From an uncultured Bacteroides sp. (lineage in GTDB: Bacteria; Bacteroidota; Bacteroidia; Bacteroidales; Bacteroidaceae), in contig CASENS010000070.1 in the NCBI GenBank assembly GCA_949289345.1, positions 1-64,000 of the forward strand: a stretch of 64,000 nucleotides of DNA, read 5' to 3'. Both the position numbers and the translations under genes were made by a program. The notes under the pieces were generated by a model. That model saw nothing but the letters and a program-made list of their open reading frames with translations. It was not told where the DNA came from and did not search any database. Positions 2,850 to 23,975 of the stretch are shown here, in pieces (positions within the stretch are counted from its first letter, which is position 1; each line of letters opens with the position of its first letter).

Positions 2850-2916
2850 GTAAGACAAACGGCATGCGGCGAAACATTTTTCGGGCAAGCTTGGATGTTT
2901 TACGCTCAAATTACAC

Positions 2917-2924
2917 TATCTTTG
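2917..2924 (+). promoter_or_regulatory. purL -7 promoter box
   Basis: TATCTTTG, 44 nt before the ATG at 2969. It supports that start over the in-frame ATG at 2864, which lies upstream of the promoter. Confidence 0.75.
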
Positions 2925-2968
2925 CACAACAATTTCATGAAATCAATAACATTCTCAAATCATACGTA

Positions 2969-7788: not shown

Positions 7789-9213
7789 ATCCGCATCCTT
7801 CAGTTCGAGCCACACAACATTCTCCACATGATGCGTGTGAGGGAACATGTCTACCGGCTGCACGGCCTTCACGCGATACATGGCATCAAGCATCTGTAGG
7901 TCGCGCGCCTGGGTGGCGGGATTACAACTGACATAGACAATCCGTTCAGGCCGGGCAAACAAAATGACATTGACTACATCGGGATGCATACCGGCACGAG
8001 GGGGGTCGGTAATGATGACATCCGGACGCCCGTGCCGGTTGATGAAGTCCTGCGTCAGTATGTCTTTCATGTCTCCCGCAAAGAAAAGCGTGTTCCTGAT
8101 GCCGTTGATTTCAGCGTTTACCTTCGCATCCTCAATCGCTTCGGGCACATACTCAATGCCGATGACCTGGCGCGCCTGGCGTGACACAAAGTTGGCGATG
8201 GTTCCCGTACCCGTATAAAGGTCATAAACCAGCTCATTGCCCGTCAGTCCCGCAAAAGAACGGGCCACTTTGTACAACTTGTATGCCTGCCCTGAATTGG
8301 TCTGATAGAATGATTTGGGACCGACTTTAAACCGCAGCCCTTCCATCTCCTCAAAAATGTGGTCCGTTCCTTTAAACACCGACACATCGAGGTCGGTAAT
8401 GGTGTCATTCACTTTGTTGTTTATCACATAAAGCAGCGAAGTGATTTCAGGAAACGCGTCGGCCACGTATTGCAACAGTTTCTTAAACAAATCCATCTCT
8501 TCGTCACGCTCAATGCGGGCGACTAGAATAACCATCAGTCCGCCCGTGGAAGAAGTACGTACAATGAGATTGCGCAACATGCCTTCGTGCGTGCGTATGT
8601 TGTTAAAGGTATAATCATGAGCGTAAGCATAATCACGGACGGCATTACGGATGCGATTTGAAATGTCGTCCTGCAACCAGCATTTCTCAATGGCCAGAAC
8701 CTTGTCAAAAGCATTCGGGATGTGGAAGCCAACGGCATTCATCTGGTCGTACACAACATTCTCCCTCACCTCTTCGGACGTAAGCCAGCGCTTGTTTGAA
8801 AAGGTATATTCCAATTTGTTGCGATAGAATTCGGTCTTGTCCGAACCAAGGATGGGTGAGATTTCGGGAAGCTCAATTTTCCCGATACGCGTCAGGTTAT
8901 CCGTCACTTGTTTCTGCTTATACTTCAGCTGTTCCCCGTAAGGAAGCACTTGCCACTTACAGCCGCCGCACACACCGTAATGCCGGCAGAAAGGCACGGC
9001 ACGCACCGGTGAATACTGATGAAAATTCACGGCCTCAGCCTCGGCATAATGATGTTTTTTCCTCTTGATTTGAAGGTCCACCACATCACCAGGCACCACA
9101 TAAGGAACAAATACAACCATATCGTTAACCCTCGCGATGGCCTTTCCTTCGGCGGCCACGTCCGTAATGGTAACGTTCTCCAGCAACGGGAGTTCTTTTT
9201 TCTTTCTTGCCAC
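7774..9213 (-). CDS. rlmD: 23S rRNA (uracil-5-)-methyltransferase, RumA/RlmD family
   Basis: SAM-dependent methylation of uridine in rRNA. The 479-aa protein has an N-terminal TRAM RNA-binding domain (about residues 10-65) and a cysteine cluster CRHYGVCGGCKW (about 77-88) that with a later Cys would hold a 4Fe-4S cluster. A Rossmann methyltransferase domain follows (YDLYTGTGTIANF near 331; ITDPPRAGM near 403) with the catalytic cysteine in VSCNPATQARD. RlmD, RlmCD and TrmA-like members cannot be separated by eye. A -7 box lies at 9243-9250. Confidence 0.9.
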   Translation of the reverse strand: MARKKKELPLLENVTITDVAAEGKAIARVNDMVVFVPYVVPGDVVDLQIKRKKHHYAEAEAVNFHQYSPVRAVPFCRHYGVCGGCKWQVLPYGEQLKYKQKQVTDNLTRIGKIELPEISPILGSDKTEFYRNKLEYTFSNKRWLTSEEVRENVVYDQMNAVGFHIPNAFDKVLAIEKCWLQDDISNRIRNAVRDYAYAHDYTFNNIRTHEGMLRNLIVRTSSTGGLMVILVARIERDEEMDLFKKLLQYVADAFPEITSLLYVINNKVNDTITDLDVSVFKGTDHIFEEMEGLRFKVGPKSFYQTNSGQAYKLYKVARSFAGLTGNELVYDLYTGTGTIANFVSRQARQVIGIEYVPEAIEDAKVNAEINGIRNTLFFAGDMKDILTQDFINRHGRPDVIITDPPRAGMHPDVVNVILFARPERIVYVSCNPATQARDLQMLDAMYRVKAVQPVDMFPHTHHVENVVWLELKDADSVQQ

Positions 9214-9242
9214 TTCTGTTTTGTTTTGATAATTTCAGTCTG

Positions 9243-9250
9243 CAAAAATA
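9243..9250 (-). promoter_or_regulatory. -7 promoter box of the rRNA methyltransferase
   Basis: Reads TATTTTTG on the minus strand, 30 nt before the ATG at 9213. No clear -33 element. Confidence 0.6.
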
Positions 9251-9278
9251 CAACTTTTAATCGACTATGGGCGCGTCG

Positions 9279-10172
9279 TCAGTAAGAAATCGGACGCAAT
9301 CCGTTCCATGTACCCCGCCAAACAGCCACCGCCAAATCGGGACGCCCGTTCCTTAAGTGCCTTACCATTTTGACCGGCATCACGACAAACAGCAGATACA
9401 GGCAGGACAAATATTTAGTCATCCCCGGACAATTGCGCCGCGCGTACATCACACGAGCCCGACGCATATAGTATTCGCGCAGCGGACTTTGCCGGGTAAT
9501 TGTCCGACTTTCTTTATGATAAATCACTGCACGAGGCTCATAAAAAAGCTTATATCCGGCCTTCCGCATCCGGAGGCTCCAGTCGAATTCCTCATAAAAC
9601 AGGAAATAGCCCTCAAACATCGGCCCGACCCGTTCTATCACCTCACGACGTACCATCATGGCGCAACCATGCAGCACTTGCGTCTCCTTCGGACACAGGA
9701 ATTCATCCCGATGCGACGGGTCGAACGGACGGGTTGTATGCTTCAAAGTAACCGGAGTCAAATCATCATAGCCATAATATTGGAGTTCCCCCGGTCTGTA
9801 CAAGCTCTCTATACAAGGGGACACAGCCCCCCATTTTCCACACCGCAAACTATCGACCAAAGGTTGCAGCACCGGTCCCTTTATCACCACATCATTGTTC
9901 AAGAAAAAAAGGTATTTGCCTGTAGCCTTCTGAACTCCCAGATTATTACCGCCGGCAAAGCCCAGATTGCGTTCACTACGCACCAGCTTAACCACAGGAT
10001 AGCGTTCAGAAATACGCTCCACGTCATCTCCGGCAGAAGCGTTATCCACAACAATCATTTCGTAAGGATACGTCTCCCATTGCCGAAACGAAGCAATCAT
10101 TTCGCACGTATCGCGCCAGCCGTTGTAATTGATGGTAATAACAGATACCATATCCTTTAAAAATGAATCCAT
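9279..10172 (-). CDS. Glycosyltransferase family 2, rhamnosyltransferase-like
   Basis: A 297-aa GT-A fold enzyme expected to add a sugar to a lipid-linked glycan at the inner face of the membrane. It begins VSVITINYNGW, then VVDNAS (about 42), the GFAGGNN nucleotide-sugar segment (about 73) and a DxD-like FFLNNDV (about 91), with FYEEFDW near 190, all typical of WbbL-type rhamnosyltransferases. An alternative ATG at 10151 sits directly before VSVITIN, so the first seven residues are uncertain. It is separated from the other sugar genes by the first ATPase/nuclease cassette. Confidence 0.85.
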   Translation of the reverse strand: MDSFLKDMVSVITINYNGWRDTCEMIASFRQWETYPYEMIVVDNASAGDDVERISERYPVVKLVRSERNLGFAGGNNLGVQKATGKYLFFLNNDVVIKGPVLQPLVDSLRCGKWGAVSPCIESLYRPGELQYYGYDDLTPVTLKHTTRPFDPSHRDEFLCPKETQVLHGCAMMVRREVIERVGPMFEGYFLFYEEFDWSLRMRKAGYKLFYEPRAVIYHKESRTITRQSPLREYYMRRARVMYARRNCPGMTKYLSCLYLLFVVMPVKMVRHLRNGRPDLAVAVWRGTWNGLRPISY

Positions 10173-10206
10173 CTCCGTTTCAAGATATCCAAAAATTTAG
10201 AAACTC

Positions 10207-11100
10207 TTAAAACTTCTCAATTTCCTCTATACTCAATCCTGTAATTTTAGCTATCACACCTACGGCAATACCTTCCTGCTTCATCGCTTTAGCATTCTGG
10301 AGACGTTCCTCCGCACGACCTTCCGCACGACCTTCTTCACGACCTTCCGCACGACCCTCTTCGAGTCCTTCCAATTTGGCCGTGCTCAACACATCATTCT
10401 GTATCATAATGGCATTGATGTGTTCGTCATACGCATGCCGCTCTGCCTGCGACATGTCGTGATAGCATAGTTTCTCCCGCGCTTCAAGCAGACCGGGAGC
10501 CGTGGTATCAGGAGATATATCGCCCGTCTTCAGATACTGTATCCATTCCTCCAACGGAGTCTTGGCCACCTGATTGAATTCATTCACCCGAATCAGATAA
10601 TACTCCGGAAACACCTCTTCGGGAAGCTTTTGCACGATAGCCCCTTCTTCTTTAGCCGTAATCAACAGTTTGTCGTTCGTATGGACACCGATGAACTGGT
10701 TTTGCCCGTGATACAAATAATCATTGCCTTTACCCAAATCGAAATAAAGGATACTGATGGAATATACTTTTTTTACCTGCTGATAGGTGTCGCCCAACGA
10801 TATGTGCTCGGTGATGGCTTTGGCTGTCCCGTAAAGAATTCGTTCCAGATAATACAGTTCGCGGGTGTTTTGCACTTCCACAATGATGATTTCTCCCTTA
10901 CTGTTCTTCGCTTTAATATCTACCCGGTTGAATTTGTCATCCTGATGTAGCTGGTTGCTTTCACTTTCCAATATCTCCACTATCTGCGTCTTGTCATTGA
11001 AAAGCACTGTCAACAAACCTTCCAACACACCAAAATTCGCTTTGTCCCTCAACAGCCTTTTTATGGCCCAATCAAACCGTATATAAGTATTTCTTTCCAT
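10207..11100 (-). CDS. Rpn/PDDEXK_2 family nuclease (transposase-like), cassette 1
   Basis: A 297-aa protein of the Rpn/PD-(D/E)XK_2 family, often annotated as a putative transposase; characterised Rpn proteins are DNA endonucleases. The core lies at residues 1-110: FDWAIKRLL at the N-terminus, the acidic residue in RVDIKA (about 59) and the E-x-Q form of the active site in IIIVEVQN (about 73). A low-complexity linker of EGRAEGREE units (about 247-265) precedes a C-terminal ending ITGLSIEEIEKF that resembles a small HTH. It lies 52 nt downstream of the AAA-ATPase-like gene on the same strand, as in cassette 2. Confidence 0.8.
   Translation of the reverse strand: MERNTYIRFDWAIKRLLRDKANFGVLEGLLTVLFNDKTQIVEILESESNQLHQDDKFNRVDIKAKNSKGEIIIVEVQNTRELYYLERILYGTAKAITEHISLGDTYQQVKKVYSISILYFDLGKGNDYLYHGQNQFIGVHTNDKLLITAKEEGAIVQKLPEEVFPEYYLIRVNEFNQVAKTPLEEWIQYLKTGDISPDTTAPGLLEAREKLCYHDMSQAERHAYDEHINAIMIQNDVLSTAKLEGLEEGRAEGREEGRAEGRAEERLQNAKAMKQEGIAVGVIAKITGLSIEEIEKF
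10309..10368. repeat. In-gene 12-bp tandem repeat in cassette 1 nuclease
   Basis: Five consecutive 12-nt units of the type TTCCGCACGACC encode the EGRA/EGRE linker of the minus-strand nuclease gene. Whole-unit changes keep the reading frame. Confidence 0.75.
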
Positions 11101-11152
11101 AAATTGAATATATTCAGCAAAACAACTTTAACAAAATAGTACTAATTCTCCA

Positions 11153-12751
11153 TCAACCAACCGTTTTCCAATCCTCCACCGTCCCCGTCTCGGAAGAAAA
11201 ACTGACTCCTATCTTATACAACCGGCGGTTGTCCGACTCATAAGGCCGGGCATAACCTTTCTCCTCTATCTGGCGCAAGGCTTCGTCCGCCGTGCCGTCC
11301 AGCTTGAACTCGAAGATATAAATGTAATCGGGCGTCTCTACGATACAATCCACCCGTCCCTCGCTCTGTTCCTTCTCGGTATAAACCGTGTAGACACTGA
11401 TGAGACGGAATATCAGGTAGAACGTGTAGTGGAAATAGCGTTCACGCTCGCGCTCGTTCTCCTTGCGGCGCATCGTGTAAGGAATGTCGGCCAGGAAAGC
11501 GGTCAGCAGTTTGCGGAACGTATCGGGGGCACCTGCCTCCAAAGCATCGGCCACGTCCTGCACCCAACTTGTCACGTTCATTCGTTTGGGGTTCAAGTAA
11601 CTGGTCGCGGCCATGGTAACAAACCCGTTTTTCACCTCATCGTTGGGAAAGTCCAAAAGGAAAGTGCCGCGACGTAAGTTGTACGCTTTAATGGTCAGGT
11701 AACCGCTTTGGTAAATCATCGGCAACGGACGTTCCACATCCGCCTTGTAGTCCACGAACTCTTCCGGACGATAATAGCGTCCGGTCAGTTCATCCAAGTT
11801 TTCTCGAAAATGGTTCAGCAAACGAATCAGATAAGTAGGGGTACCGCTGCTGAACCAATAGTCACGCAACTCCTGTTTGGCAAAAGCATTCAACAGGCTG
11901 AACGGATTGTAAATGTCTGTCAAACTGGTACTGAAATGATAGCCGTCGTATTGCTGTTTCAGACCTTCTTTTATCCCAGCCACTGTAGTCCGATATTTTG
12001 AGGCCATGCTCTTTATCGGATCGGCGAAATAATGTTCCAACTCTTCCTGGGTGATACCGCAAAGCGTTTCATACCTTCCGTCCATGCTGATATCGTCCGG
12101 TTGGTTGAAGCCGCTGAACACACTCACCTGCGAGAACTTCGTCACGCCCGTCAGCAGCACGAAACGCAGGTCCTCGTCCGCAGCCTTGAACACCGAATAG
12201 AAACCTTTCAAGATTTCCCGATGACGGTCCTCCAGCAAACGCTCTTCTTCACCCACTTTCGTCTTATAGCCCGTGTCCAGCACGTCAAGTATCGGTTTGT
12301 CATACTCGTCAATCAGCACTACGCAGCGGCGACCATACTGTTTGTGTGCCTGGCGCAATACGTAGGCGAAGCGGTCGCCAAGGGTTTGAGGATTTGTGTC
12401 TTTCCCATAAATTCTTTCCAAAGACGCGACATACCCTTCCAGTTTCATTTCCAGGTTACCCGCCACCGTAAAATCCGTCCCGTTGAAGTCCATGTGAAAC
12501 ACCGGATACTCCGCCCACTCCGTTTCCAGCCGCTCGATGGCAAGACCCTTGAACAAGTCTTTCCTTCCTTGGAAATAACACTTCAGCGTAGAGACCAGCA
12601 GGCTCTTGCCGAAACGGCGAGGACGGCTCAGGAAATAAATATTTCCACTGGTCGCCAGTTGGTAGACCAAGGCGGTCTTGTCTACATAGACATAACCGTC
12701 TTCTATGAGTTTGTCGAAACTCTGAATGCCTATGGGATATTTCATCATCAC
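11153..12751 (-). CDS. AAA-ATPase-like protein with C-terminal PDDEXK_9 nuclease domain, cassette 1
   Basis: A 532-aa protein of the PF09820/PF08011 architecture, which is abundant in Bacteroidetes and has no established function. The N-terminal P-loop NTPase has the unusual Walker A SRPRRFGKSLL (about residues 41-51) and a clear Walker B VVLIDEYDKP (about 143-152). VLLTGVTKFS near 198 fits a sensor region. The C-terminal nuclease-like domain shows the acid in GRVD and the E-x-K in FEFKLDG; the Lys codon is at 11303-11305. The likely start is the second or third Met (MKYPIGIQSF). It is followed after 52 nt by the PDDEXK_2 gene, and a paralogous pair lies at 19.5-22.1 kb. Confidence 0.85.
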   Translation of the reverse strand: MMMKYPIGIQSFDKLIEDGYVYVDKTALVYQLATSGNIYFLSRPRRFGKSLLVSTLKCYFQGRKDLFKGLAIERLETEWAEYPVFHMDFNGTDFTVAGNLEMKLEGYVASLERIYGKDTNPQTLGDRFAYVLRQAHKQYGRRCVVLIDEYDKPILDVLDTGYKTKVGEEERLLEDRHREILKGFYSVFKAADEDLRFVLLTGVTKFSQVSVFSGFNQPDDISMDGRYETLCGITQEELEHYFADPIKSMASKYRTTVAGIKEGLKQQYDGYHFSTSLTDIYNPFSLLNAFAKQELRDYWFSSGTPTYLIRLLNHFRENLDELTGRYYRPEEFVDYKADVERPLPMIYQSGYLTIKAYNLRRGTFLLDFPNDEVKNGFVTMAATSYLNPKRMNVTSWVQDVADALEAGAPDTFRKLLTAFLADIPYTMRRKENERERERYFHYTFYLIFRLISVYTVYTEKEQSEGRVDCIVETPDYIYIFEFKLDGTADEALRQIEEKGYARPYESDNRRLYKIGVSFSSETGTVEDWKTVG

Positions 12752-12890
12752 GCTTTCGTTTTTTTTAAGATTATCGTTTCACAAAGAAACGAATTTATTT
12801 TGAGAATTACAAGATAACTGGAAAAATCTCACATATAATTAAAAAAGTGTAAATGACAAAATATGGAAGAAAAAAATCATAATTTATCTT

Positions 12891-12898
12891 TATATTTG
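12891..12898 (+). promoter_or_regulatory. -7 promoter box before the GT4 gene
   Basis: TATATTTG, 37 nt upstream of the ATG at 12936. It starts the plus-strand glycosyltransferase/flippase pair. Confidence 0.7.
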
Positions 12899-12935
12899 CA
12901 TGGATAGATAGAAAGAGACAATTAAAATAAAAACC

Positions 12936-14138
12936 ATGAATATACTATTTGTGTATCCTAACATACTATATCCCGAACGCGGAGGAACCGAACGGGTCAG
13001 CGACCTTTTGGCTAAAGAATTTACCCGAAGAGGGCATCAATGCTTTTACCTGCACGCCATCCGCGAAGAAGCACTGATGAACTATCCCTATCCGGCACAG
13101 CTTGCCTTTTTCCCGGACTCCACCAGAGGACTCACAGAAGCGAACGGCATCTTCTATCACGACTATATCATCCAACACCAAATTGACATCGTTATCAATC
13201 CTCATTTCGCACCCGATTTAAAACGTTCCGATTATTCGGACTTATGCCGGTATTCACAAGATATCAGACAAGTGAGCACCATTTGTGTGGTACATTGGAA
13301 TCCGGTTCTTTCCTACAGATGTATCTTTAATCACACCATGTTTTGGTGGGAACAAACACGATGGCAGAAAATAAAAGGTATCACCCGCTTGTTGAAAGTA
13401 CCTTTCCGGATACATACCTACAGGAAAAGGTTAAGGCTAAAATATGAAAGTTGTCTGGCTTGCACCGACAGGCTTTGCCTGCTTTCCCACAGATATATTC
13501 CCGAACTGGCCGGCCTTATGCCTCTTCCCCAAGGGAAGATAACAGCCATCAACAACCCCAACACCTATCCACAGCAGCCCACCGAAAGCTATGCCAAAAA
13601 GAAACGACTCCTGTATGTAGGTAGACTCGAATGGGTACAGAAACGGACGGACCGTTTAGTAAAGATATGGAAACGCCTCTACAAGCAGTTCCCGGACTGG
13701 GAACTGGTCATTGTGGGAGGCGGACCCTTAAAGCCTTACCTGGAAAACGAAGCACGGACTTTGGAGAGAGTCAGGCTCGTAGGTTATCAGAATCCGGAGC
13801 CTTATTACAAAGAAGCCAGCCTTTTGTGCCTACCCAGTGATTATGAAGGTTTTGGCATGGTCTTAATTGAAGCCATGACCTTCGGCACCATTCCCGTAGT
13901 ATTCAATTCGTATGCAGCGGCAGAAGATATCATTCAAGACGGAGAAAACGGGATTCTGGTTCCTCCACTTTCCATTTCCCGTTTTGCGCATGCTTTGGCA
14001 AGCCTTATGAGTGACGGGAAGAAACGGGAAAGAATGTCGCAGGCTTGCCGAGAGTCTGTCCGTAAGTTCGATATCCGGCACATCGGCGACGAATGGGAAA
14101 AACTGTTTGCCGAACTAAAAAGAAACGCTAACCGATAA
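12936..14138 (+). CDS. Glycosyltransferase family 4
   Basis: A 400-aa GT-B enzyme that should transfer a sugar from a nucleotide donor to a growing glycan on the cytoplasmic side. It starts with a Rossmann domain (ILFVYPNI...ERGGTERV). The GT4 donor-binding half shows LLYVGRLEWVQKRTDRL (about 227), then the E-x7-E region CLPSDYEGFGMVLIEAMTFGTIPVV (about 297-321), with both glutamates present. A flippase gene begins 3 nt after its stop, so the two are one operon. Donor and acceptor sugars cannot be told from sequence. Confidence 0.9.
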   Translation: MNILFVYPNILYPERGGTERVSDLLAKEFTRRGHQCFYLHAIREEALMNYPYPAQLAFFPDSTRGLTEANGIFYHDYIIQHQIDIVINPHFAPDLKRSDYSDLCRYSQDIRQVSTICVVHWNPVLSYRCIFNHTMFWWEQTRWQKIKGITRLLKVPFRIHTYRKRLRLKYESCLACTDRLCLLSHRYIPELAGLMPLPQGKITAINNPNTYPQQPTESYAKKKRLLYVGRLEWVQKRTDRLVKIWKRLYKQFPDWELVIVGGGPLKPYLENEARTLERVRLVGYQNPEPYYKEASLLCLPSDYEGFGMVLIEAMTFGTIPVVFNSYAAAEDIIQDGENGILVPPLSISRFAHALASLMSDGKKRERMSQACRESVRKFDIRHIGDEWEKLFAELKRNANR

Positions 14139-14141
14139 GCC

Positions 14142-15677
14142 ATGCCCCACGAATCACGCCTCCGGAAATCACTGCTCAACGCCAGGGTAAACTTGATTTT
14201 TTACTTCCTGTCCTTGTGCGTCTCCTTCTTTTCGAGGAGGATATTCTTGTCCGCATTGGGCGATGAATTCATGGGGCTGAGCGGCACATTAAGCAATTTG
14301 CTGAACTTCCTGAACCTTGCCGAACTGGGCATCGGTACGGCCATCGGCTATTTGCTGTACAAGCCCCTCTTTGCGGACGACCGTCAGAAAATCAACGAAA
14401 TCATCGCCGTATTCGGGTACATCTACCGGCAGATAGGCTTTATCATTTTGGGAGCCGGATGCGTACTGGCGTGTTTCCTCCCCTTGATATACCCCGACAC
14501 TCCGTTTTCCTACGGCGTCATCTATTTTGCCTATTTCTCCATGCTGGCTTCCTCCCTGTTCAGCTATTTCCTCAATTACAAACAGACACTGTTGGGAGCC
14601 GACCAGAAAAATTACGTAGTCACAGCCTACTACCAATGTATGATCATTGCCACGACTTTGCTGCAAATGGCCGTGGCTTATTACACCGGCAACTATTACC
14701 TGTGGCTGGCTTTAGGACTGACATGCAGCATCGCGTACACCATTCTCCTAAACTGGAAAATCAGGCAAGTGTACCCGTGGTTGGAAGGGAAAGTGTCGCA
14801 AGGACGGAAACTCTTCAAGGAATATCCGGAAGTGATGACCTACACTAAACAGCTCTTTATCCATAAGATAGCTGGTTTTGTACAGTTTCAGACCACCCCG
14901 GTTTTGGTATATGCGTTTGTGTCCCTAAAAACTGTGGCTCATTACGGAAACTACACCATCATCATTGATAAAATCACACTTTTTATCAGCAATTTACTCA
15001 ACAGCGCAGATGCCAGCGTGGGAAATCTGATAGCAGAAGGAAACCGGAACAAAATCTTGCAAGTGTTCTGGGAACTGCAGGAAATACGCTTCCTCATAGG
15101 CGGATGCGTGTCATTCGCGTTTTGGTTGCTGACCGAACCTTTCATCAGCCTATGGTTAGGTGAGGAATACTTGCTCCACCATTCCATCTTACTCCTGCTA
15201 ATCATTAATTCTTTTATCCATAACACCCGATGGTCCGTTGAACAATTCATTCGTGGATACGGACTGTTCTACGATATATGGGCTCCTTTTGCAGAAAGTC
15301 TGATTTATCTGACTGTAGCCATCATCGGCGGCTCCTTGTGGGGACTACCTGGAATTCTGTTAGGAAATACCATCAGCCTGCTCACTATTATCTGTATTTG
15401 GAAACCATATTTCCTCTATAGCAAAGGATTCAAACTACCCGTCCGGAAGTATTGGACCCGATATTTCCAGCATTTCTTTATCCTATTGCTAACCGGAGCC
15501 TGTTGCCGTTGGCTGCTTCCTCCCGAGCTATTCGCACCGGACAAGTCCTTTCTTCACTGGACGGCATACGCATTTGCCGTTACCTTGAGTTTTGTTTTTC
15601 TCTGTGCAATTTTGTTTTATGGCAGCTTTGCAGAGTTCCGAATTTTTGTGCATCGTTTCATCCGACACGCACATTGA
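14142..15677 (+). CDS. Wzx-like polysaccharide flippase
   Basis: A 511-aa polytopic membrane protein with about 12-14 hydrophobic segments, of the MOP/Wzx class that flips undecaprenyl-linked oligosaccharides across the inner membrane. The N-terminal pattern (RVNLIFYFLSL, then FLSALGDEFMGLSG and a second helix with LAELGIGTAIGY) is typical of Bacteroides and Firmicutes capsule translocases. It is co-oriented with the GT4 gene 3 nt upstream. No polymerase (Wzy) or chain-length protein is visible nearby, so the locus may be incomplete or serve a fixed-length glycan. Confidence 0.88.
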   Translation: MPHESRLRKSLLNARVNLIFYFLSLCVSFFSRRIFLSALGDEFMGLSGTLSNLLNFLNLAELGIGTAIGYLLYKPLFADDRQKINEIIAVFGYIYRQIGFIILGAGCVLACFLPLIYPDTPFSYGVIYFAYFSMLASSLFSYFLNYKQTLLGADQKNYVVTAYYQCMIIATTLLQMAVAYYTGNYYLWLALGLTCSIAYTILLNWKIRQVYPWLEGKVSQGRKLFKEYPEVMTYTKQLFIHKIAGFVQFQTTPVLVYAFVSLKTVAHYGNYTIIIDKITLFISNLLNSADASVGNLIAEGNRNKILQVFWELQEIRFLIGGCVSFAFWLLTEPFISLWLGEEYLLHHSILLLLIINSFIHNTRWSVEQFIRGYGLFYDIWAPFAESLIYLTVAIIGGSLWGLPGILLGNTISLLTIICIWKPYFLYSKGFKLPVRKYWTRYFQHFFILLLTGACCRWLLPPELFAPDKSFLHWTAYAFAVTLSFVFLCAILFYGSFAEFRIFVHRFIRHAH

Positions 15678-16297
15678 ATACCCGACCGCTATTTCCCGTA
15701 AGTAAGAATCTGTTAGCGGAGTGTTTTTATGGGAGATTTTTCCGTTGTAGAAGAATATAAAAACTCTGTGACTCCGTGTTTAAAACTGAAATCACCGTAT
15801 GTTTTGAACCAAAGGATAGTTAGTTTTACTTCAAAAGATAGTATGATTTGAAGCAAAAGAGTGTATGCTTTTTTATGGTTCATCCGACAAATGTGTATTT
15901 GTATAAATGGGAAAATGAATCCGCAAATTGCCAAGCGTAGGATGGAAAGCAAAGTAAACAAACTGCGATGCCCATTTCAGCTTGCTTCTATACCCATTTA
16001 AACTTACTTCTATAACGGTTGAAGCATAGCTTCATTTACGAAGACATTTTTTGGTGAAATGTGGACATTCAAAATGGGAATTTAGCCCCCTCCCTCCTCC
16101 CCCCATGGGGGAGGCTTTGAATACTAAGTAGAATACAATAGCTCCCCCACGGGGGGAGTTGAGGGGGCTTCTAAATTATCATTTAACAGAGTGTTTAGAT
16201 GGCGCACGATACTTTGGCAACCGTATTTTCACCTGCGTTCATCTGCGTTCCATTGTACACACATATGCATATAGCATAAATAAATAAATATGGGCAG
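15678..16297. other. Intergenic region after the flippase gene
   Basis: No convincing gene. A weak stem CCGCTA/TAGCGG (15686-15719) followed by T-rich DNA may end the flippase transcript. Positions 15790-15870 hold imperfect repeats of a TTTGAAnCAAAAGA type, and 15975-16020 two imperfect copies of CTTACTTCTATA. A GC-rich REP-like inverted pair lies at 16084-16169. An 82-codon minus-strand frame (15713-15961) has no recognisable features. Confidence 0.55.
16084..16169. repeat. REP-like inverted pair, copy A
   Basis: Two GC-rich units, 16084-16116 and 16140-16169, are in opposite orientation around an AT-rich centre. Each is itself a hairpin (CCCCCC/GGGGGAGG type) and begins AGCCCCCTCC when read inward. 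The same family recurs at 51204-51331, 53690-53725 and 53911-53942. Confidence 0.75.
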
Positions 16298-17376
16298 TTA
16301 CATATCCTTCGCAGGAAAGCATCGTGCATCGGCATCCGACGCCCAAACGGAATCGTACGAAAATCGCCTGATGGAGATGCGGAACATAAGAGAAATAAAC
16401 AGGTCGTAACAAGCAAACCAACGCCACTCCAAAAGCAATCCACCCAGCCAGTCTATTTTAAAAGCAAAGAACCGGCATCCTGTCCGCAAAAAATCGCCGG
16501 CCGCATCCGTCAATATGCTTACATGTTCAATACGCTCCTTCCGGCACACTTTATGGTATGGCTGATAGTCTGTCTTCAACGCCCGTTGAAAAGAACTGGC
16601 CAACATCACAATCATACTTACTCCTCCGGATGTGCCCCAAGTCTGCCGGATACGTCGGCCCATTTCCTTAAGAAGCAAAAATGTTTTATACTCTGACACG
16701 AAAGTCCTCAAATGCCCGTGCGACAGGGAATCAGTATAATGGACATACACATAATTCAACACCGGACGAATCCAAATATAATCACAAAAAAACAGATAAC
16801 GGAGCACGAACAACGTATCTTCATTAGAATGAACACCTTCGTCAAAACGAAGATGATGAACATCCAAAATCGACCTGTTGAAAATTTTACCCCACGGAGA
16901 TCCCCTAAGGCAAAACTCATAATCCGTAAAAAGTTCGCTGAAACGCCGATAGGGCAAATAGAGGTTCAAGGCAGCCCATCGCTCAACGGTTCGCCCCAAG
17001 AATTTACAGAATGATGTCCATGAACGACCAATCCCACTCCCGGATGGGCAGAAGCGTCTTCATAAAGGGCGTGCAAATAGCTTGGCAGGACATAATCGTC
17101 CGAATCGACAAACACCACATAGTGCCCTTTTGCAACGTCCAAGCCCTTATTACGGGCACAGCTGACACCCGCATTCGGTTGATGAAACACCCGCACCCGA
17201 TTGTCCTTCCCGGGATACTCATCGCAAATCTCCCCGCAACGGTCGGGACTGCCATCGTCTATCAGCAACAGTTCAAAATCCGTAAACGTCTGCGCCAAAA
17301 TACTATCCAAGCAACGTGCCAAATAAGGCTCGACATTGTAAACGGGAACAATAACAGATACTGCGGGATTTTTCAT
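16298..17376 (-). pseudogene. Glycosyltransferase family 2, frameshifted
   Basis: Two minus-strand frames together make one GT2 of about 345 aa. The first (17376 to 16966) holds the GT-A half: VSVIVPVYNVEPYLARCLDS, LLIDDGSPD, VFVDSDDYV with the DxD-type motif. It ends soon after GEPLSDGLP. The C-terminal half continues in another frame (16999 to 16298; RFSELFTDYEFCL, then GSPWGKIFN, SNEDTLF). Near 16966-16999 a 1-nt deletion (or 2-nt insertion) explains the break. The second frame alone could start only at a TTG. It follows an intact paralogue with an ATGA overlap, so it was the last gene of a three-GT operon. A sequencing error cannot be excluded. Confidence 0.75.
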
Positions 17377-18410
17377 TTTCCTCCTCCAAACATTTTTTTA
17401 AAGTGACTACACAACAAGAAACGCATCCAAACATCCACACAAGCATACCATCCGGTCCTTAGGAAGAAAGCCGTCACCTTATCCGCCTTGTAATCGGGAT
17501 TGAACCAGGCGGCTATCCACCCAGAATAGTCTGTACGCAACTGCTTCAGACTAGCAATACGCTCACGATAGCTTTTGTTTTCTTTTGAGGAATAAAGGAC
17601 CAACAGGACACGATGAAAGAATGCGCGAAGTCCCCTCCATGACTTATGGAACCTATCGGAAGGATATCCGGAAGATTGGACAAAACCGCTTACATAACCA
17701 TAATAAGCCCGAAATATGCACAACTCCTCGGCCAATGGCTTATAGGCTACAGACAAAGCGGTATCGGAATATCCTACACGGTACACATAGTTGGCGACAT
17801 CGCTTACCTTAATTAAAGAGACACGCTGTATATACTCAAATAAGAAAAATAAATCTTCCAATAAAGTTATGCCGACAGGAAAACGAAGTTGGTGCGACCG
17901 GATCAATTCATTAGAAAATAATTTAGCACAAGAGTAGCCAAAATCCTTATCTCCATAATCCAATAAAATACGAAACACTTCCCCACCATCTATTCTTGAT
18001 TCCCGCAGATGACAAAACACCGAATCACCATTCGGGTAAAGTTTATATACCGTATGGATGACCAAGCATTCCGGGTCGGAGTCTTGTAGACTATCATACA
18101 AGTCTTTCAAATAACCGGGCAATACGTAATCATCCGAATCCACAAAAGCAATGTATTCCCCTACAGCCTGTTCAAGCCCCAGGTTTCTCGCCGCGCTTAC
18201 CCCTTTGTTTTGTTGATGAAACACCCGAATCCGATTATCTCTTTTCGCATATTCCTCACAAATCTCCCCGCAACAGTCCGGACTACCGTCGTCTATCAAC
18301 AGCAGTTCAAAGTCCGTAAACGTCTGCGCCAAAATACTTTCAATGCATTGCGGCAGATACTTTTCGGCCTTATAAACAGGCACTATGACTGATATTAAAG
18401 GTGAAACCAT
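17373..18410 (-). CDS. Glycosyltransferase family 2
   Basis: A 345-aa capsule-type GT2. GT-A motifs: ISVIVPVYKAEKYLPQCIES at the N-terminus, LLIDDGSPD (about 37), VSAARNLGL (about 70) and FVDSDDYV (about 88). The C-terminal half has SCAKLFSN and EDLFFLFEY, matching the ED segment seen in many Bacteroides capsule GT2s. Its first 110 residues are close to those of the frameshifted neighbour, so the pair looks like a tandem duplication. The 5' end overlaps the upstream GT2 gene by 16 bp and the 3' end shares ATGA with the downstream one. Confidence 0.9.
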   Translation of the reverse strand: MVSPLISVIVPVYKAEKYLPQCIESILAQTFTDFELLLIDDGSPDCCGEICEEYAKRDNRIRVFHQQNKGVSAARNLGLEQAVGEYIAFVDSDDYVLPGYLKDLYDSLQDSDPECLVIHTVYKLYPNGDSVFCHLRESRIDGGEVFRILLDYGDKDFGYSCAKLFSNELIRSHQLRFPVGITLLEDLFFLFEYIQRVSLIKVSDVANYVYRVGYSDTALSVAYKPLAEELCIFRAYYGYVSGFVQSSGYPSDRFHKSWRGLRAFFHRVLLVLYSSKENKSYRERIASLKQLRTDYSGWIAAWFNPDYKADKVTAFFLRTGWYACVDVWMRFLLCSHFKKMFGGGK

Positions 18411-19462
18411 CTTTTTAATTTAACAGGTAAAACCGAAACATAATACGTCAGCCGGATATACCACTTAAAATAGACATATCCCGCCCGCACGGGCAACGCA
18501 TAGTGCAGGTTGCGCAACGCCAGTACCGGCCCTATCCGGAAACGAAGCAGAGCTTTCCGTGCCGGAAGGTATTTCTTAGCCCGGAATACCCGATAACTCT
18601 CGTAGCGAAACGCTTCATCGGCACAGTAATACAGAATTCGATCGAAATATTTAGCCTTCAGTGTCTCGAAGAATATATAGACCAAGCGGTTAGTCTGCAA
18701 GGCTGAATTGGCTACAATGAAGTCGAAGATGCAACCTAACACTATGACACGGCATTCTAAGTTTCGTTTAGATGGGGAACGCATAATTGAATTAAGTTGC
18801 ATGTAATAATAATAGGTAACCTCATTTAATACATACATTCGCTTAGCACAACAAGCCAACCGGAAAGACCACAAATCATCCTCATGCACAATACCTTCTT
18901 TAAAAAACAACAGATTAGCATTCATCCATTCCCTACGAACCAATTTATTCCACGCCATAACATACCACTTATCTTTCAGATAAGCTGAAAGTATCACTTC
19001 ATTAGCTTCATAGAAACCTGTAGAAAGCAACAAAGGAGGAACCCAATTATCGCCTCCAGTAACCTTGTAATTACCTATTACAAAATCCGCACAATATTGT
19101 AACGCTGGCTTTGCCAAATTCTCCATACTATCCAAAGGCAAATAATCATCACTATCCAAAAAATAAAGATAATCGCCCGTAGCGGTACGAATGCCCGTAT
19201 TGCGAGCCGCAGAGAGTCCTTTGTTTACCTCATGTTCCAGCATCCGTACCATCGTCCCCCGCGGATGTGCTGACACGACCTTACGGACTATCTCCATAGA
19301 GTTGTCCGGTGTGCAATCATTGACTACAATGACCTCCAAATCCTGCCACGTCTGATTGAGGACAGACAACAGGCTGCGCTCTATATAAGGAGCGACATTA
19401 TAAACAGGTATGATGACAGATACTTTCATGCTTCTTCCACTATCCATTTCTTTATGTTCCAC
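18395..19462 (-). CDS. Glycosyltransferase family 2
   Basis: A 355-aa GT2 and the first gene of the three-gene GT operon read leftward. Motifs: VSVIIPVYNVAPYIERSLLS (about 14), VIVVNDCTPDNS (about 44), GLSAARNTG (about 83), and DxD in YFLDSDDYLPL (about 100). MAWNKLVRREW (about 168) and EDDLWSF (about 194) sit where the acceptor half carries its conserved acid pair. A start at the internal Met before KVSVIIP (residue 12) is possible. The acceptor is unknown. Confidence 0.9.
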   Translation of the reverse strand: MEHKEMDSGRSMKVSVIIPVYNVAPYIERSLLSVLNQTWQDLEVIVVNDCTPDNSMEIVRKVVSAHPRGTMVRMLEHEVNKGLSAARNTGIRTATGDYLYFLDSDDYLPLDSMENLAKPALQYCADFVIGNYKVTGGDNWVPPLLLSTGFYEANEVILSAYLKDKWYVMAWNKLVRREWMNANLLFFKEGIVHEDDLWSFRLACCAKRMYVLNEVTYYYYMQLNSIMRSPSKRNLECRVIVLGCIFDFIVANSALQTNRLVYIFFETLKAKYFDRILYYCADEAFRYESYRVFRAKKYLPARKALLRFRIGPVLALRNLHYALPVRAGYVYFKWYIRLTYYVSVLPVKLKRWFHL

Positions 19463-19528
19463 ATCTGCGAGCTGAAATTCGCTTCCGTCTTGTAACGAAC
19501 AGGAAAACGAGTTGTTTTTTCCATCTCA

Positions 19529-20515
19529 TCACAAATTCTCCACTTCCTCCCTTGTCAACCCGGTAGCTTGAACAATCTGTTCCGCAGAAAGTCCCATTTT
19601 TTTCAGCTTACAAGCCGTGGACAAAAGGCTCTCTTTCCGGCCTTGTTCAAGACCTTGTTCAAGACCTTGCTCAAGACCTTGTTCCATACCTTTCCGCCGA
19701 CTTTCTTCCATGCCTCTTTGGAATTTCTCCTCCCATTCCCGTTGCATGTCCTCCTCTACAATACGGTTGACATAATACCTGTCCATCGCCTTGTCATAGG
19801 CGATACGGTTCTCTTCTGACAAATTGGCCACCGCGGCCAATTGTTCAAGACGCTTAAAGACCTGTTCCTTTAAAGCATCCGGCATTCTACTCCAATGGTT
19901 CATATTCTTCAATACATACATCAGTTTCTCATAAACGGTCTCACATGCAGCCAATTCCTTCGTGAAATAAGGGAACTGCAAATATATCTGACGAAAGTGG
20001 GGATTCACCACCTTACCGTTATCACGATCGGCTATCACCGTATCCGTACGGAACTTCGGTTCCAAGCCCTGTTCCTTAAAATTCATCAGAAAAACACCAT
20101 ACACAGAAGGCAGCTTATAACGTGTACCATAAGGGACAGGGCTTTCACGCAAGACCCCTCCCGGATACGGTTCGGACGGCAAAGCCACATCCGATGAGGA
20201 AGGCTTATCCATCTGACGGCTTATGGCACGACAGATATAATAAAGCGTACGGTCAAGAAAGTTCGCATGCCATCGGTTTTGCATCTCCACAATGATGTAC
20301 TCACCCGTTGACGTGCGGCAATACAAATCGTAAATAATGCCCGGATCGTGATGATTATCCGAACGGTCTTCCTTGTCAAGGAATGTTAAGTCCTCAATAT
20401 GATGTTCACCGGACAACAATTCATTCAACAGGGTAATCAAAAGTTCCTTACTGGCCGATTGCCCGAAGATTATCTTAAAACCTATATCTGTAAACGGATT
20501 TACAAAATGTGCCAT
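19529..20515 (-). CDS. Rpn/PDDEXK_2 family nuclease (transposase-like), cassette 2
   Basis: About 328 aa from the ATG at 20515 (AHFVNPFTDIGFK), the usual N-terminus of this subfamily; an in-frame ATG at 20542 would add nine residues. Active-site residues of the D...E-x-Q type are seen in GIIYDLYC (about 64) and YIIVEMQNRW (about 76). The C-terminus has a GLEQGLEQ linker encoded by 12-nt repeats and ends ATGLTREEVENL, parallel to the ITGLSIEEIEKF end of cassette 1. It begins 54 nt after the ATPase-like gene. Rpn proteins are linked to DNA cleavage and recombination; the role here is unknown. Confidence 0.82.
   Translation of the reverse strand: MAHFVNPFTDIGFKIIFGQSASKELLITLLNELLSGEHHIEDLTFLDKEDRSDNHHDPGIIYDLYCRTSTGEYIIVEMQNRWHANFLDRTLYYICRAISRQMDKPSSSDVALPSEPYPGGVLRESPVPYGTRYKLPSVYGVFLMNFKEQGLEPKFRTDTVIADRDNGKVVNPHFRQIYLQFPYFTKELAACETVYEKLMYVLKNMNHWSRMPDALKEQVFKRLEQLAAVANLSEENRIAYDKAMDRYYVNRIVEEDMQREWEEKFQRGMEESRRKGMEQGLEQGLEQGLEQGRKESLLSTACKLKKMGLSAEQIVQATGLTREEVENL
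19641..19688. repeat. In-gene 12-bp tandem repeat in cassette 2 nuclease
   Basis: Four 12-nt units of CCTTGTTCAAGA type encode the GLEQ linker on the minus strand. The fourth unit is diverged. Confidence 0.8.
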
Positions 20516-20569
20516 TATTCTTATGCTTACATATGTTATCAAAATAGAACCCGACCGCTTTCCGCGTGA

Positions 20570-22117
20570 TTATGCCATTTCTTCCACTATCCACTTCTCT
20601 ATGTTCCGCGTCTGCGAACTGAAGTTCACACCTATCTTATAAACCTTGCGGGTATCCGAACGGAATGGCAAGGCATACTGTTTTTCTTCTATCTGACGCA
20701 AAGCATCCTCGGCGGTGCCTTCCAGCATGAACTCCATCACGTAGACAAAGCGATTGGTCTGCAACACAAGGTCAATGCGCCCCTGCGAAGTATGGTATTC
20801 CGCCTTTACGTAGAAGCCTATCAGCCTGAAAACTATAAAAAGCACATTCTGGTAATGCAATTCCTGATCGCGTATCAGTTCGTAGGGAGTGTCGGCAAAG
20901 AAACTTTGCAAGCGATGGAAGAAAGCGTCTATTTCACCGCCCTCTATTTCCTCAACAAAATTTTCTATAAAAAATGCGGCCTTTTCTTTCTTAACAGAAG
21001 CATAACAAGGCAACAGAAAATCCATGAACCCTTCTTCCACCTCCTTATTCGGAAAGCCTAAGCGATAGGTCCCGAAACGTTTGTTATACCCCTGAATGGT
21101 CAAATAACCGCTTTGGAAAATAACAGGTAACGGCTCGTCATCGCCATATATACTATTCAGGACGTCTATTTTAGTAACAGCTTCAGCCATATCCTCCAAT
21201 CTGTAATGACTACGTTTCAATAATTCCACCAAATAGGTTGGAGTGCCGGTCTCGAACCAATAGCTGCCGAAATTTTGGGAGTCGAACGCGTTGAGCAAAC
21301 TAAAAGGATTGTATATTCCTTCAGAATTCTCCACAAAATGATATCCGTCATACTGTTCCTTCAAGTTGGCGCAGACCTCCTCGTACGTCATGCCCTGCGC
21401 TTCAGCCAGTTCATGAAGCTGTTCCTCCAAGTTAGCATGAATCTCCTCCTCCGTGATGCCACACAAAGTAACGAATCGCCTATCCATGGAAATATCCTTC
21501 AGGTTATTCAAGTCGCTGAACACACTCACCTTGCCGAACTTGGTCACCCCGGTCAGCAAAGCGAAGCGAATGTAACGGTCCGCCGTCTTCAACACACCGT
21601 AAAAAGGCTTCAGCATGGAGCGCAACTCTTCCTGCAAAGGCTTGTCGCCGATGGATTGAAGCAAAGGCTTGTCGTATTCATCCACCAAAACCACGACCGG
21701 GAAACCGGTTTTCACGTACGCACGCTCTATGACACCTTTGAAACGGAGAGACAACGAACGCTCATTTTCGTTCCTCCCGTAAACGTCCTCCCAAGCGGAA
21801 AGAGCTTCATGCAGGATGTTGTACAGGCTGTCCGTCGAGTCATATTTCTCGATGTTCAAATCCAAATGAAGTACCGGATAGGCCGTCCAGTCTTGCTCAA
21901 GCCGCTCCATGGCCAGTCCGCGAAACAACTCCTTCTTCCCTTTGAAGTATGCCTCAAGGGTTGAAATAAGCAGGCTCTTGCCGAAACGGCGAGGACGGCT
22001 GAGGAAATAATAAGTGCCACCCGTAACAAGCTTGTAAATTAATTCAGTCTTATCTATATAAAAGAAACCTCCCCGGCGAAGTTTCTCAAAGTCCTGAACA
22101 CCTATCGGATATAACAT
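20570..22117 (-). CDS. AAA-ATPase-like protein with degenerate PDDEXK_9 domain, cassette 2
   Basis: A 515-aa paralogue of the 11153-12751 product along its whole length. The N-terminus reads YPIGVQDFEKLRRGGFFYIDK, with Walker A SRPRRFGKSLL (about 39) and Walker B VVLVDEYDKP (about 142). VTKFGKVSVF follows near 197. In the C-terminal nuclease-like domain the acid is kept (GRID), but the expected E-x-K reads EFMLEG: the Lys is a Met (codon 20727-20729). The ATPase motifs are intact. A -7 box at 22147-22154 lies 30 nt upstream. Confidence 0.85.
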   Translation of the reverse strand: MLYPIGVQDFEKLRRGGFFYIDKTELIYKLVTGGTYYFLSRPRRFGKSLLISTLEAYFKGKKELFRGLAMERLEQDWTAYPVLHLDLNIEKYDSTDSLYNILHEALSAWEDVYGRNENERSLSLRFKGVIERAYVKTGFPVVVLVDEYDKPLLQSIGDKPLQEELRSMLKPFYGVLKTADRYIRFALLTGVTKFGKVSVFSDLNNLKDISMDRRFVTLCGITEEEIHANLEEQLHELAEAQGMTYEEVCANLKEQYDGYHFVENSEGIYNPFSLLNAFDSQNFGSYWFETGTPTYLVELLKRSHYRLEDMAEAVTKIDVLNSIYGDDEPLPVIFQSGYLTIQGYNKRFGTYRLGFPNKEVEEGFMDFLLPCYASVKKEKAAFFIENFVEEIEGGEIDAFFHRLQSFFADTPYELIRDQELHYQNVLFIVFRLIGFYVKAEYHTSQGRIDLVLQTNRFVYVMEFMLEGTAEDALRQIEEKQYALPFRSDTRKVYKIGVNFSSQTRNIEKWIVEEMA

Positions 22118-22146
22118 AACGAAATACGTTTAAGGGTTTACAAAAA

Positions 22147-22154
22147 CAAAGATA
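22147..22154 (-). promoter_or_regulatory. -7 promoter box of cassette 2
   Basis: Reads TATCTTTG on the minus strand, 30 nt before the ATG at 22117. Cassette 2 therefore looks separately transcribed from the asparagine-synthase-like gene upstream. Confidence 0.65.
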
Positions 22155-22187
22155 GTAAAAAAAAGATAACCACGCGCCATATCTTCC

Positions 22188-23975
22188 TTAAAAATCCACA
22201 TGCCTTCCTGCCACAAACTCTTCCCACCACACCGTCATCGTCAATAAATTGAAGTATTGCAAAGCCTGGTTCTGGCGAAACCAAAACCAAGTGTCAAGTT
22301 TACCCGACCGGACGTCGTAACCATCCAAAAAGTCCCGTACGGAAGTCCGATTTAGGTAATCATCCATAATGGACGAAGACAGCATAAAATCTTTCAGTCG
22401 TGCACGCCACACACCGTCCGCAAAAAACAAGGGCATTGGAGCAAATCCGCCCTGCTTGCGCCGGGAGGTTATGGCAGCCGGAAGCATAGGCTTGTAATGA
22501 TACTTCAACAGGAACTTAGAAACGGAATGGCCACGGGCCATAGCCCACAAGCTATCACTCTTACACTTCAAATTAACAGGCAGACGTTGCAGAAAAGCAT
22601 ACAGGCTACGGTCCATGAACGGATAAGCAAGACGGTTGCCAAACATACGCGCCATGGCAGAAGCTTTGTAAAGGATGACGCGGTCAATCACAATATCCAT
22701 GTCAGACAGCTTGGTATGCTGGTTATAAAGCGCATCGAAACTGCTGACATCGGCTATCGGAGCGGGAAGCGGACTGAAATCGGCATCGGGACGCTGCAAC
22801 AACCTACGCATCGCAGCATCCGTAAAACCAAAACGTTCTCCTTCCAACAAATGCAGTATCTTGTCCACATGGAAACGTATGCGCGAAAGTTTGCCTCCCT
22901 TGTCCGCCCACTCTCCTTTCAAGCATCTATAAAGAGTCCATAACAACGGAAGCCCTCCCATACGCGACGCCAAATAATACAGAGCGACTTCACGTCCGGA
23001 AGTACCGAAATACTGGTCGCTGCCGTCACCACCCATGATAACGGGAGGCTTGTCTTTACCCACCAGACGCATGGCACAATAGTTGACCATCAATCCGCCT
23101 TCCACAAAAGGCTCACCCAAGAAACGGACTATATCAGGCAGGAAACGTATCTCACTTCCATCTATCTCATACTCGTGGTGATTAGTACCAAACTCTTGCG
23201 ACATAATCCGTGTCAAAGGGAGTTCAGACCAGGTATCTCCCTTAAAACCTATGGAATAAGAGTCGACCGGTCCCGAATAGACTTTCCGCAAAGCTGCAAG
23301 ATTGGAACCGGAATCGTAACCGCCACTCAAAAGGATACCGACTCTGTCAGCAGTACCTATACGCCGACGAACGGCCGACTCGTGCAAACGGCCATACTCA
23401 TCGGCATAAGCATCCAAACTATCCTTCGAAGAACACGGCTGAGCAGAGAAATCCGACTCATACACATTACGGACAACGGATTTTCCACCCGATAATACCA
23501 AACTATACCCTGCTTCCAGCCGTGATATTCCCAGCAACGCAGAACGACGTGGGAGCATCAGCCCCCGCTGAAGAGCAGCCGAAAGGCTACAACGGTCAAG
23601 GACACAACCAGTATCCTGCGGCCAAAAGAAATGCAAACTTGTAGAAAAAGTCCCGTCATCCTGATAATAAACCGGCCAATGTGTGCCGTGCGCATCGCGC
23701 GCCACACCGCATAGACGCGGAGAAAAGTAAACAATCGTAAAGCAACCGTCCAATCGGGCAAAGGCTGTGACACCCCCGTTTTTAAACAAACCTGCCACCA
23801 AAGCGGCATTAGAAATACGCTTGTCATTGTCGCCAGCCAAGAGGACATCACGGTTGTAAACTACCCCCCAAAAGAACATCCGGACTTCGTCGTTCTGATA
23901 AAAGGATTCGGGAGTATCACCCTGTACTTGCGCTGTACGCCAATCATCCGCAAATGTCAGTTTTCCGTGTATCAT
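22188..23975 (-). CDS. Asparagine synthase-like protein lacking the glutaminase cysteine
   Basis: A 595-aa protein of the AsnB architecture: N-terminal Ntn-type glutaminase-like domain (about 1-180) and C-terminal ATP-pyrophosphatase domain. The ATP loop LLSGGYDSGSN (about 217) and MGGDGSDQYFG (about 314) are present. The N-terminus reads MIHGK with no Cys at position 2, so glutamine hydrolysis should not occur and ammonia or another amine may be used. Within a glycan region, amidation of a sugar acid is one possibility (inference). The membrane GT2 gene ends 51 nt upstream on the same strand. Confidence 0.85.
   Translation of the reverse strand: MIHGKLTFADDWRTAQVQGDTPESFYQNDEVRMFFWGVVYNRDVLLAGDNDKRISNAALVAGLFKNGGVTAFARLDGCFTIVYFSPRLCGVARDAHGTHWPVYYQDDGTFSTSLHFFWPQDTGCVLDRCSLSAALQRGLMLPRRSALLGISRLEAGYSLVLSGGKSVVRNVYESDFSAQPCSSKDSLDAYADEYGRLHESAVRRRIGTADRVGILLSGGYDSGSNLAALRKVYSGPVDSYSIGFKGDTWSELPLTRIMSQEFGTNHHEYEIDGSEIRFLPDIVRFLGEPFVEGGLMVNYCAMRLVGKDKPPVIMGGDGSDQYFGTSGREVALYYLASRMGGLPLLWTLYRCLKGEWADKGGKLSRIRFHVDKILHLLEGERFGFTDAAMRRLLQRPDADFSPLPAPIADVSSFDALYNQHTKLSDMDIVIDRVILYKASAMARMFGNRLAYPFMDRSLYAFLQRLPVNLKCKSDSLWAMARGHSVSKFLLKYHYKPMLPAAITSRRKQGGFAPMPLFFADGVWRARLKDFMLSSSIMDDYLNRTSVRDFLDGYDVRSGKLDTWFWFRQNQALQYFNLLTMTVWWEEFVAGRHVDF

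Follow-up and report, generated by a model that had tools for sequence, protein, structure and literature searches.

The 64,000-nucleotide (nt) stretch analysed here, hereafter the window, comprises positions 1 to 64,000 of the forward strand of contig CASENS010000070.1 from an uncultured Bacteroides sp. (assembly GCA_949289345.1), that is, contig C70 of a 3.44-Mb genome in 126 contigs. On its minus strand it carries two gene pairs, in each of which an ATPase gene is followed by an Rpn nuclease gene. Pair A consists of ATPase A (12751–11153, 532 amino acids, aa) and Rpn A (11100–10207, 297 aa), separated by a 52-nt spacer (11101–11152), while pair B consists of ATPase B (22117–20570, 515 aa) and Rpn B (20515–19529, 328 aa), separated by a 54-nt spacer (20516–20569); the latter gap is counted from the ATG at 20515, and a longer Rpn B frame starts with TTG at 20542. 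In Pfam searches, both ATPases contained an AAA-ATPase_like domain (PF09820) followed by PDDEXK_9 (PF08011), and the two Rpn proteins, of the PDDEXK_2/TIGR01784 nuclease family, scored 85.2 and 147.8 bits on PF12784 (cut-off 27.4) and 85.9 and 89.8 on TIGR01784 (cut-off 52.1). The members of both pairs are therefore members of known families. An earlier reading made from the letters alone (the sequence-only reading) had taken the two pairs for a cassette of conserved pairing and spacing, whose products might act together in defence or DNA mobility. The observation itself is confirmed, as the coordinates, the order on one strand, the gaps and the Pfam families all hold, and the interpretation is partly supported. 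Both families are multicopy accessory genes, and the whole genome contains four PF09820 and seven PF12784 genes; the third ATPase sits at the end of contig C21, with its downstream side lying beyond the contig, and the fourth (C79) had no Rpn within the 7.3 kb fetched around the gene.

To evaluate the pairing, the 29 best-matching loci per protein besides the window's own were drawn from about 300–400 genomes of the family. An ATPase was found upstream of none of the 29 Rpn A homologues (one locus, L031, has an ATPase 1 kb downstream) and of one of the 29 Rpn B homologues, a contig-edge locus with a truncated Rpn. Similarly, no Rpn followed any of the 29 ATPase A or the 29 ATPase B homologues, a single ATPase A locus (L088) having a convergent Rpn. 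A hidden Markov model built from 58 Rpn proteins likewise detected no Rpn directly downstream in 68 close and same-genus ATPase loci (including 10 extra same-genus ones, L013–L022), whose downstream flanks were at least 336 nt long, with a median of 1500 nt. Further, among the best 80 of 557 ATPase loci from named genomes, 72 of which had a called downstream gene, only one carried an Rpn in its flanks (L176, CALUPA010000193.1, from an uncultured Phocaeicola). Spacing was not conserved either, since other same-order pairs have gaps of 11, 33, 60, and 61 nt. At the DNA level, similarity to homologues starts at the Rpn start codon and stops at or before the ATPase stop, extending about 60 nt upstream of ATPase A; BLAST searches with the two junctions against 288 loci besides those of the window gave 126 and 130 matches, none of which spanned both genes at either junction.

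Adjacency was then compared with the expectation from copy number in 12 same-genus genomes whose selection, by ATPase number or contiguity, preceded the search for pairs, using 147 of 157 ATPase and 69 of 71 Rpn matches. Pairs closer than 3 kb in any orientation numbered 4 vs. 1.34 expected under uniform placement, comprising one ATPase-to-Rpn pair (0.3 expected), one in reverse order and two divergent ones. In eight further genomes (73 of 87 ATPase and 45 of 53 Rpn matches used), of which G311 and G235 were included on account of a tandem pair already observed in them, 6 pairs were found vs. 0.64 expected, with two ATPase-to-Rpn, three reverse and one divergent. The matches omitted were unlisted or weak fragments, one of them beside the already counted G311 pair, and genes in two pieces were merged. 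In total, the 20 genomes held three ATPase-to-Rpn, four Rpn-to-ATPase and three divergent pairs, and the convergent one of L088 lies elsewhere, so that no fixed order or orientation is evident; the 12 genomes amount to a check, on a modest scale, of the copy-number comparison that the sequence-only reading had proposed. Because relatives of the four genes almost never sit together, the arrangement resembles reshuffled, dispensable genes of a defence type more than a conserved two-gene machine. We therefore favour, with a probability of roughly 0.72, the reading that two independently spreading accessory single-gene families have come to adjoin in a variable glycan-synthesis region and do not form a conserved two-component system; the cause of the arrangement would then be mostly ordinary.

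A plainer version, which we consider unlikely, is chance co-localisation in a hypervariable glycan region of genes without any linking history; for pair A alone it overlaps with the favoured reading. Both families are multicopy, and ATPase neighbours are diverse. In a Pfam scan of 69 downstream and 70 upstream neighbours, no family had more than three members, the commonest being the ATPase itself downstream (3) and polysaccharide export proteins upstream (SLBB/Poly_export, 3 of 70); this census omits four loci with gene-caller failure, two where the ATPase itself was taken and two very long neighbours. In the 12 genomes, 24 Rpn genes vs. 13.4 expected were counted at distances of up to 30 kb from an ATPase, with no excess within 100 kb (39 vs. 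44.6), so the pair excess is due in part to accessory genes clustering locally. Pure chance is opposed by the two same-order pairs lying 9 kb apart and by an ATPase remnant behind Rpn B (described below), which point to a shared local history at least at pair B.

Several results weigh against the favoured reading. The genome itself holds 2 tandem pairs vs. 0.012 expected for 4 ATPase and 7 Rpn genes placed uniformly, a figure that is the finding itself and no independent test. At least four, perhaps five, same-order pairs appear independent, namely window pair A, window pair B and L176 (possibly of one origin), the pair of G009 and G311 (orthologous, 95% and 90% identical), and that of G235; a further case is L146. 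The pair B type, ATPase then Rpn, occurs in three places, the window, L176, and the truncated L146, and because L176 (62% and 61% identical) and L146 (fragments) are of this type, the order in the pair B subfamily may be partly inherited. Moreover, among 22 further loci of the Rpn B type, all with 43% identity or more and 21 of them with wide flanks retrieved, three abut an ATPase, vs. about 1–2% per gene expected from the ATPase densities of four such genomes: L146 has it upstream, and L263 and L264, which come from one genus and are perhaps not independent, have broken ATPases downstream. The remaining loci of the 22 had no abutting ATPase. Finally, a promoter-type box is missing in 4 of 6 paired vs. 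14 of 95 unpaired Rpn genes (Fisher P 0.009), two of the six being 90% identical orthologues.

TAnnTTTG is the −7 element of Bacteroides promoters. Such a box precedes 55 of 70 Rpn starts and 252 of 336 ATPase starts by no more than 100 nt, most often by 20–55 nt, compared with means of 4.3 and 19.7 in shuffles preserving base composition only. Both gene kinds thus usually carry their own promoter-type box. For ATPase B, the −7-type box TATCTTTG lies 37 nt upstream (22147–22154, minus strand). Neither spacer A nor spacer B contains an exact TAnnTTTG, and both window Rpn genes have no such box, which is present in 81 of the 95 unpaired ones. As these two window genes lack a box of their own, it is plausible that each shares the transcript of its ATPase. 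This co-transcription would not be specific to the ATPase, because the box is also missing more often from unpaired Rpn genes close behind any same-strand open reading frame (ORF) (7 of 27, vs. 7 of 68 others). As an observation apart, L143 and L145 hold an orthologous ATPase–Rpn pair in two same-genus genomes, with a conserved 60–61-nt spacer that contains TATCTTTG/TACCTTTG.

The missing boxes could also be read as a facultative operon, in which an Rpn landing just behind an ATPase loses its promoter and is co-expressed, the ATPase gating or aiming the Rpn nuclease. In line with it are the independent same-order pairs, four or five in number and separated by 11 to 61 nt, the box deficit of the paired genes and the duplication of the ATPase–Rpn junction in L176. 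We nevertheless judge it clearly unlikely: the arrangement is rare (1 in 147 ATPase matches of the 12 genomes, in addition to the single locus among the 80), reverse and divergent neighbours are equally common, the partners in same-order pairs come from different subfamilies, unpaired Rpn genes close behind any same-strand ORF share the box deficit, and ATPase B has lost its catalytic lysine.

A more specific trace of history lies directly 3′ of Rpn B, where 19426–19494 (minus strand) reads as about 21 matching codons of an ATPase 3′ end followed by GCA TGA. The 21 residues encoded by 19432–19494 match the ATPase B C-terminus at 71% identity, the closest match among 169 family ends; as DNA, the remnant is a 64-nt copy of 81% identity. 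Its local alignment score was 68, compared with a maximum of 27 in 300 shuffles of the same base-composition-only kind. Rpn B consequently lies between two ATPase 3′ ends, the intact ATPase B upstream and the remnant downstream, and outside the two ATPase genes no other ATPase-like stretch was found in the 64-kb window. The stop codon of the remnant shares bases with the likely start codon of the following glycosyltransferase (ATGA, 19426–19429), which makes it probable that this gene was once adjoined by an ATPase. With regard to annotation, this glycosyltransferase, given from a GTG at 19462, more likely starts at the ATG at 19429 (344 aa), the part of the frame upstream being the ATPase remnant.

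A related arrangement was found in L176, an alternating ATPase end–Rpn–ATPase–Rpn array in which 145 of 147 junction bases are identical. Its second Rpn (2857–3372) is without roughly the first 155 residues, that is, the N-terminal nuclease half; in L146, an ATPase 3′ end is similarly followed by an Rpn without its first ~174 residues. These truncated proteins could be antitoxin-like tails or products of decay. A candidate ATPase remnant behind the Rpn of L146 (E 5e-4; best reversed control 5e-3) was rejected, as it scored 16 against a shuffle maximum of 24.

The simplest reading at pair B, with L176 as the model, is decay of an ATPase–Rpn–ATPase array, pair B being the probable leftover of an arrangement whose second ATPase would have decayed to its last ~21 codons. 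The bolder alternative is that genes of the Rpn B type insert time and again at ATPase 3′ ends, or recombine through them, leaving the ATPase intact upstream and the old 3′ end downstream as a direct repeat. It would fit the position of Rpn B between the intact end of ATPase B and a copy that, among the family ends, is nearest to ATPase B, the first Rpn of L176, which lies between an upstream ATPase end and a downstream ATPase gene, and the three of 22 Rpn B-type loci that abut an ATPase. Yet there is a single clear remnant, the L146 candidate having failed the shuffle test; the ATPase of L263 and L264 is on the downstream side only; and most Rpn B relatives have no nearby ATPase. Array decay gives the same picture without any homing, and it is favoured over insertion since tandem duplication but no target-site duplications are reported for Rpn regions and arrays (PMC10327210). 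Repeated 3′-end integration is thus very unlikely in our view. If it were true, ATPase arrays would serve Rpn toxin–antitoxin nucleases as a platform on which to dock and amplify, and the remnant would be a visible footprint of movement of the supposedly non-transposing Rpn genes.

Other routes to the present layout were considered and rejected. A simple recent duplication of one pair does not fit, because the ATPases are 45% identical (over 526 residues) vs. only 22% for Rpn A and Rpn B, and the direct repeats of at least 24 nt between the pairs fall inside coding sequences. No inverted repeat pair of at least 24 nt (12-nt seed) indicative of an insertion sequence was found in 9200–23000. With respect to carriage by phages or plasmids, viral contigs yielded two ATPase relatives but no relative of Rpn A or Rpn B, each Rpn having been searched as a single protein, which detects close relatives only. 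In a phage collection queried with ATPase B and Rpn B, 31 and 4 records contained a relative, respectively, and in a plasmid collection, 63 records matched ATPase B, 17 Rpn B, and 19 Rpn A. Close Rpn B matches occurred in three plasmid records, two of which carry SusD/TonB or glycan genes and the third of which is unannotated; no ATPase relative was present within 6 kb in any of the three.

The ATPases themselves resemble the DUF1703 proteins (Knizewski et al., 2007, PMC1913061; expanded in Cardinium, PMC6387759) in their domains, RPRRFGKS Walker A motif and multicopy expansion, and differ in that ATPase B has a methionine at the catalytic lysine position. The P-loop SRPRRFGKSLL is indeed present in both window ATPases, as the sequence-only reading noted, but it is not unusual: SRPRRFGKS occurs in 162 of 172 distinct family ORFs of at least 450 aa, and LSRPRRFGKSLL in 148. 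The motif is a family hallmark, and the arginine-for-glycine Walker A of DUF1703 has been known since 2007 (Knizewski et al., PMC1913061). The catalytic motif of ATPase A is E-F-K. ATPase B reads E-F-M, with the Met464 codon at 20726–20728 (minus strand), whereas the lysine (E-x-K) is kept in 161 of the 163 family ORFs with a readable motif (9 of 172 unscored). As Met464 replaces the catalytic lysine, the nuclease activity of ATPase B has probably been lost or changed, although the base may have been miscalled. No sequence match to solved structures was obtained for ATPase A. In the parts of PMC1913061 and PMC6387759 consulted, no role is established for the family; from its domains, each ATPase would be a stand-alone, ATP-controlled PD-(D/E)XK nuclease, with ATPase B as a probably nuclease-dead member. 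The abundance of PF09820 varies widely within the genus, as G005 has 43 matches in 3.8 Mb and 25 of 60 genomes have none.

The Rpn proteins share the PDDEXK_2/TIGR01784 domain with the Rpn toxin–antitoxin nucleases RpnL/RpnS (Zhong et al., 2023 preprint, PMC10327210), and also a multicopy state and four-residue repeats of 12-nt units near the C-terminus. The repetitive linkers pointed out by the sequence-only reading are real 12-nt tandem arrays, of the E-G-R-A type in Rpn A (10310–10356, 3.9 copies) and of the E-Q-G-L type in Rpn B (19641–19692, 4.3 copies), both on the minus strand, but they are a family-wide Rpn feature and no mark of special kinship. The number of [EKQ]G motifs in the last 160 residues ranges from 3 to 21 among complete Rpn A homologues and from 3 to 11 among Rpn B homologues. 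The linkers match the hypervariable four-residue repeats reported for Rpn toxin–antitoxin nucleases (PMC10327210). Comparison of Rpn A with solved structures yielded nothing beyond repeat-tail noise.

Rpn A also has an internal ATG before the repeats, a possible RpnS-like start. Its Met232 (M-I-Q-N-D) opens a candidate RpnS-like frame of 66 aa (10207–10407, minus strand; frame checked), and this ATG is kept in all 30 loci, including that of the window, about 12 residues ahead of the repeats, adjacent residues being conserved too; the E. coli RpnS start lies 8–20 residues ahead of the repeats (PMC10327210). None of the 30 loci has a −7 box within 100 nt upstream of the internal ATG, and thus no internal promoter for RpnS was found in Rpn A. 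Rpn B differs in that no conserved internal start was found at the one position tested, where ATG occurs in 1 of 15 scored loci (one of 16 unscored) and GTG in 6, GTA in 3, TTG and CTG in 2 each, and CTT in 1. By analogy with the E. coli work, each Rpn would act alone as an Rpn-type nuclease whose full-length protein cuts DNA, and its C-terminal helical tail, with a variable number of four-residue repeats, would control or restrain its own nuclease.

Gabija and PARIS are multi-gene ATPase/nuclease defence systems. Similar to the window pairs, such systems, named in PMC10952713, set an ATPase and a nuclease side by side. The window pairs differ from them in having no credible PADLOC match (best E 0.0004, on the repetitive tail of Rpn B) and no conserved pairing, so that a two-product defence unit, or any known defence system, is not supported here. 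The link of Rpn nucleases as such to phage defence stands (PMC10327210); the part of this source consulted contains no description of Rpn genes adjoining ATPases. The ATPase–Rpn pairing was also absent from the titles and abstract openings of the open-licence literature searched, and for one Cardinium genome an Rpn protein and DUF1703 fragments are mentioned, not as a pair, in the consulted part of PMC12039267.

Around the two pairs, Pfam searches identified glycosyltransferases of groups 1 and 2 and an asparagine-synthase-like gene, and a 511-aa protein at 14142–15677 has a flippase-like look without a Pfam match. A family 2 glycosyltransferase at 16298–17376 (minus strand) is apparently split into overlapping frames, 16298–16999 (without Pfam match) and 16966–17376 (Glycos_transf_2), and is probably a broken gene; it adjoins a relative at 17373–18410 (71% over 300 nt). 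Between converging genes, the intergenic segment 16085–16170 contains a G/C-rich inverted repeat, GCCCCCTCC...GGAGTTGAGGGGGC, which is reminiscent of the dispersed palindromes of Bacteroides, and imperfect 22-nt tandem repeats lie in the same intergenic region at 15797–15872 and 15971–16014. Rfam gave no match anywhere in the window.

Newly observed are the loss of the lysine in ATPase B, the ATPase remnant behind Rpn B and the alternating Phocaeicola array. The analysis guards against announcing a gene pair that is not conserved as a novel defence system, and it identifies the repetitive linker with a hypervariable feature already known from Rpn proteins. What interest remains attaches to the remnant and the alternating array, which together offer a tangible clue to the spread of Rpn and DUF1703 copies.

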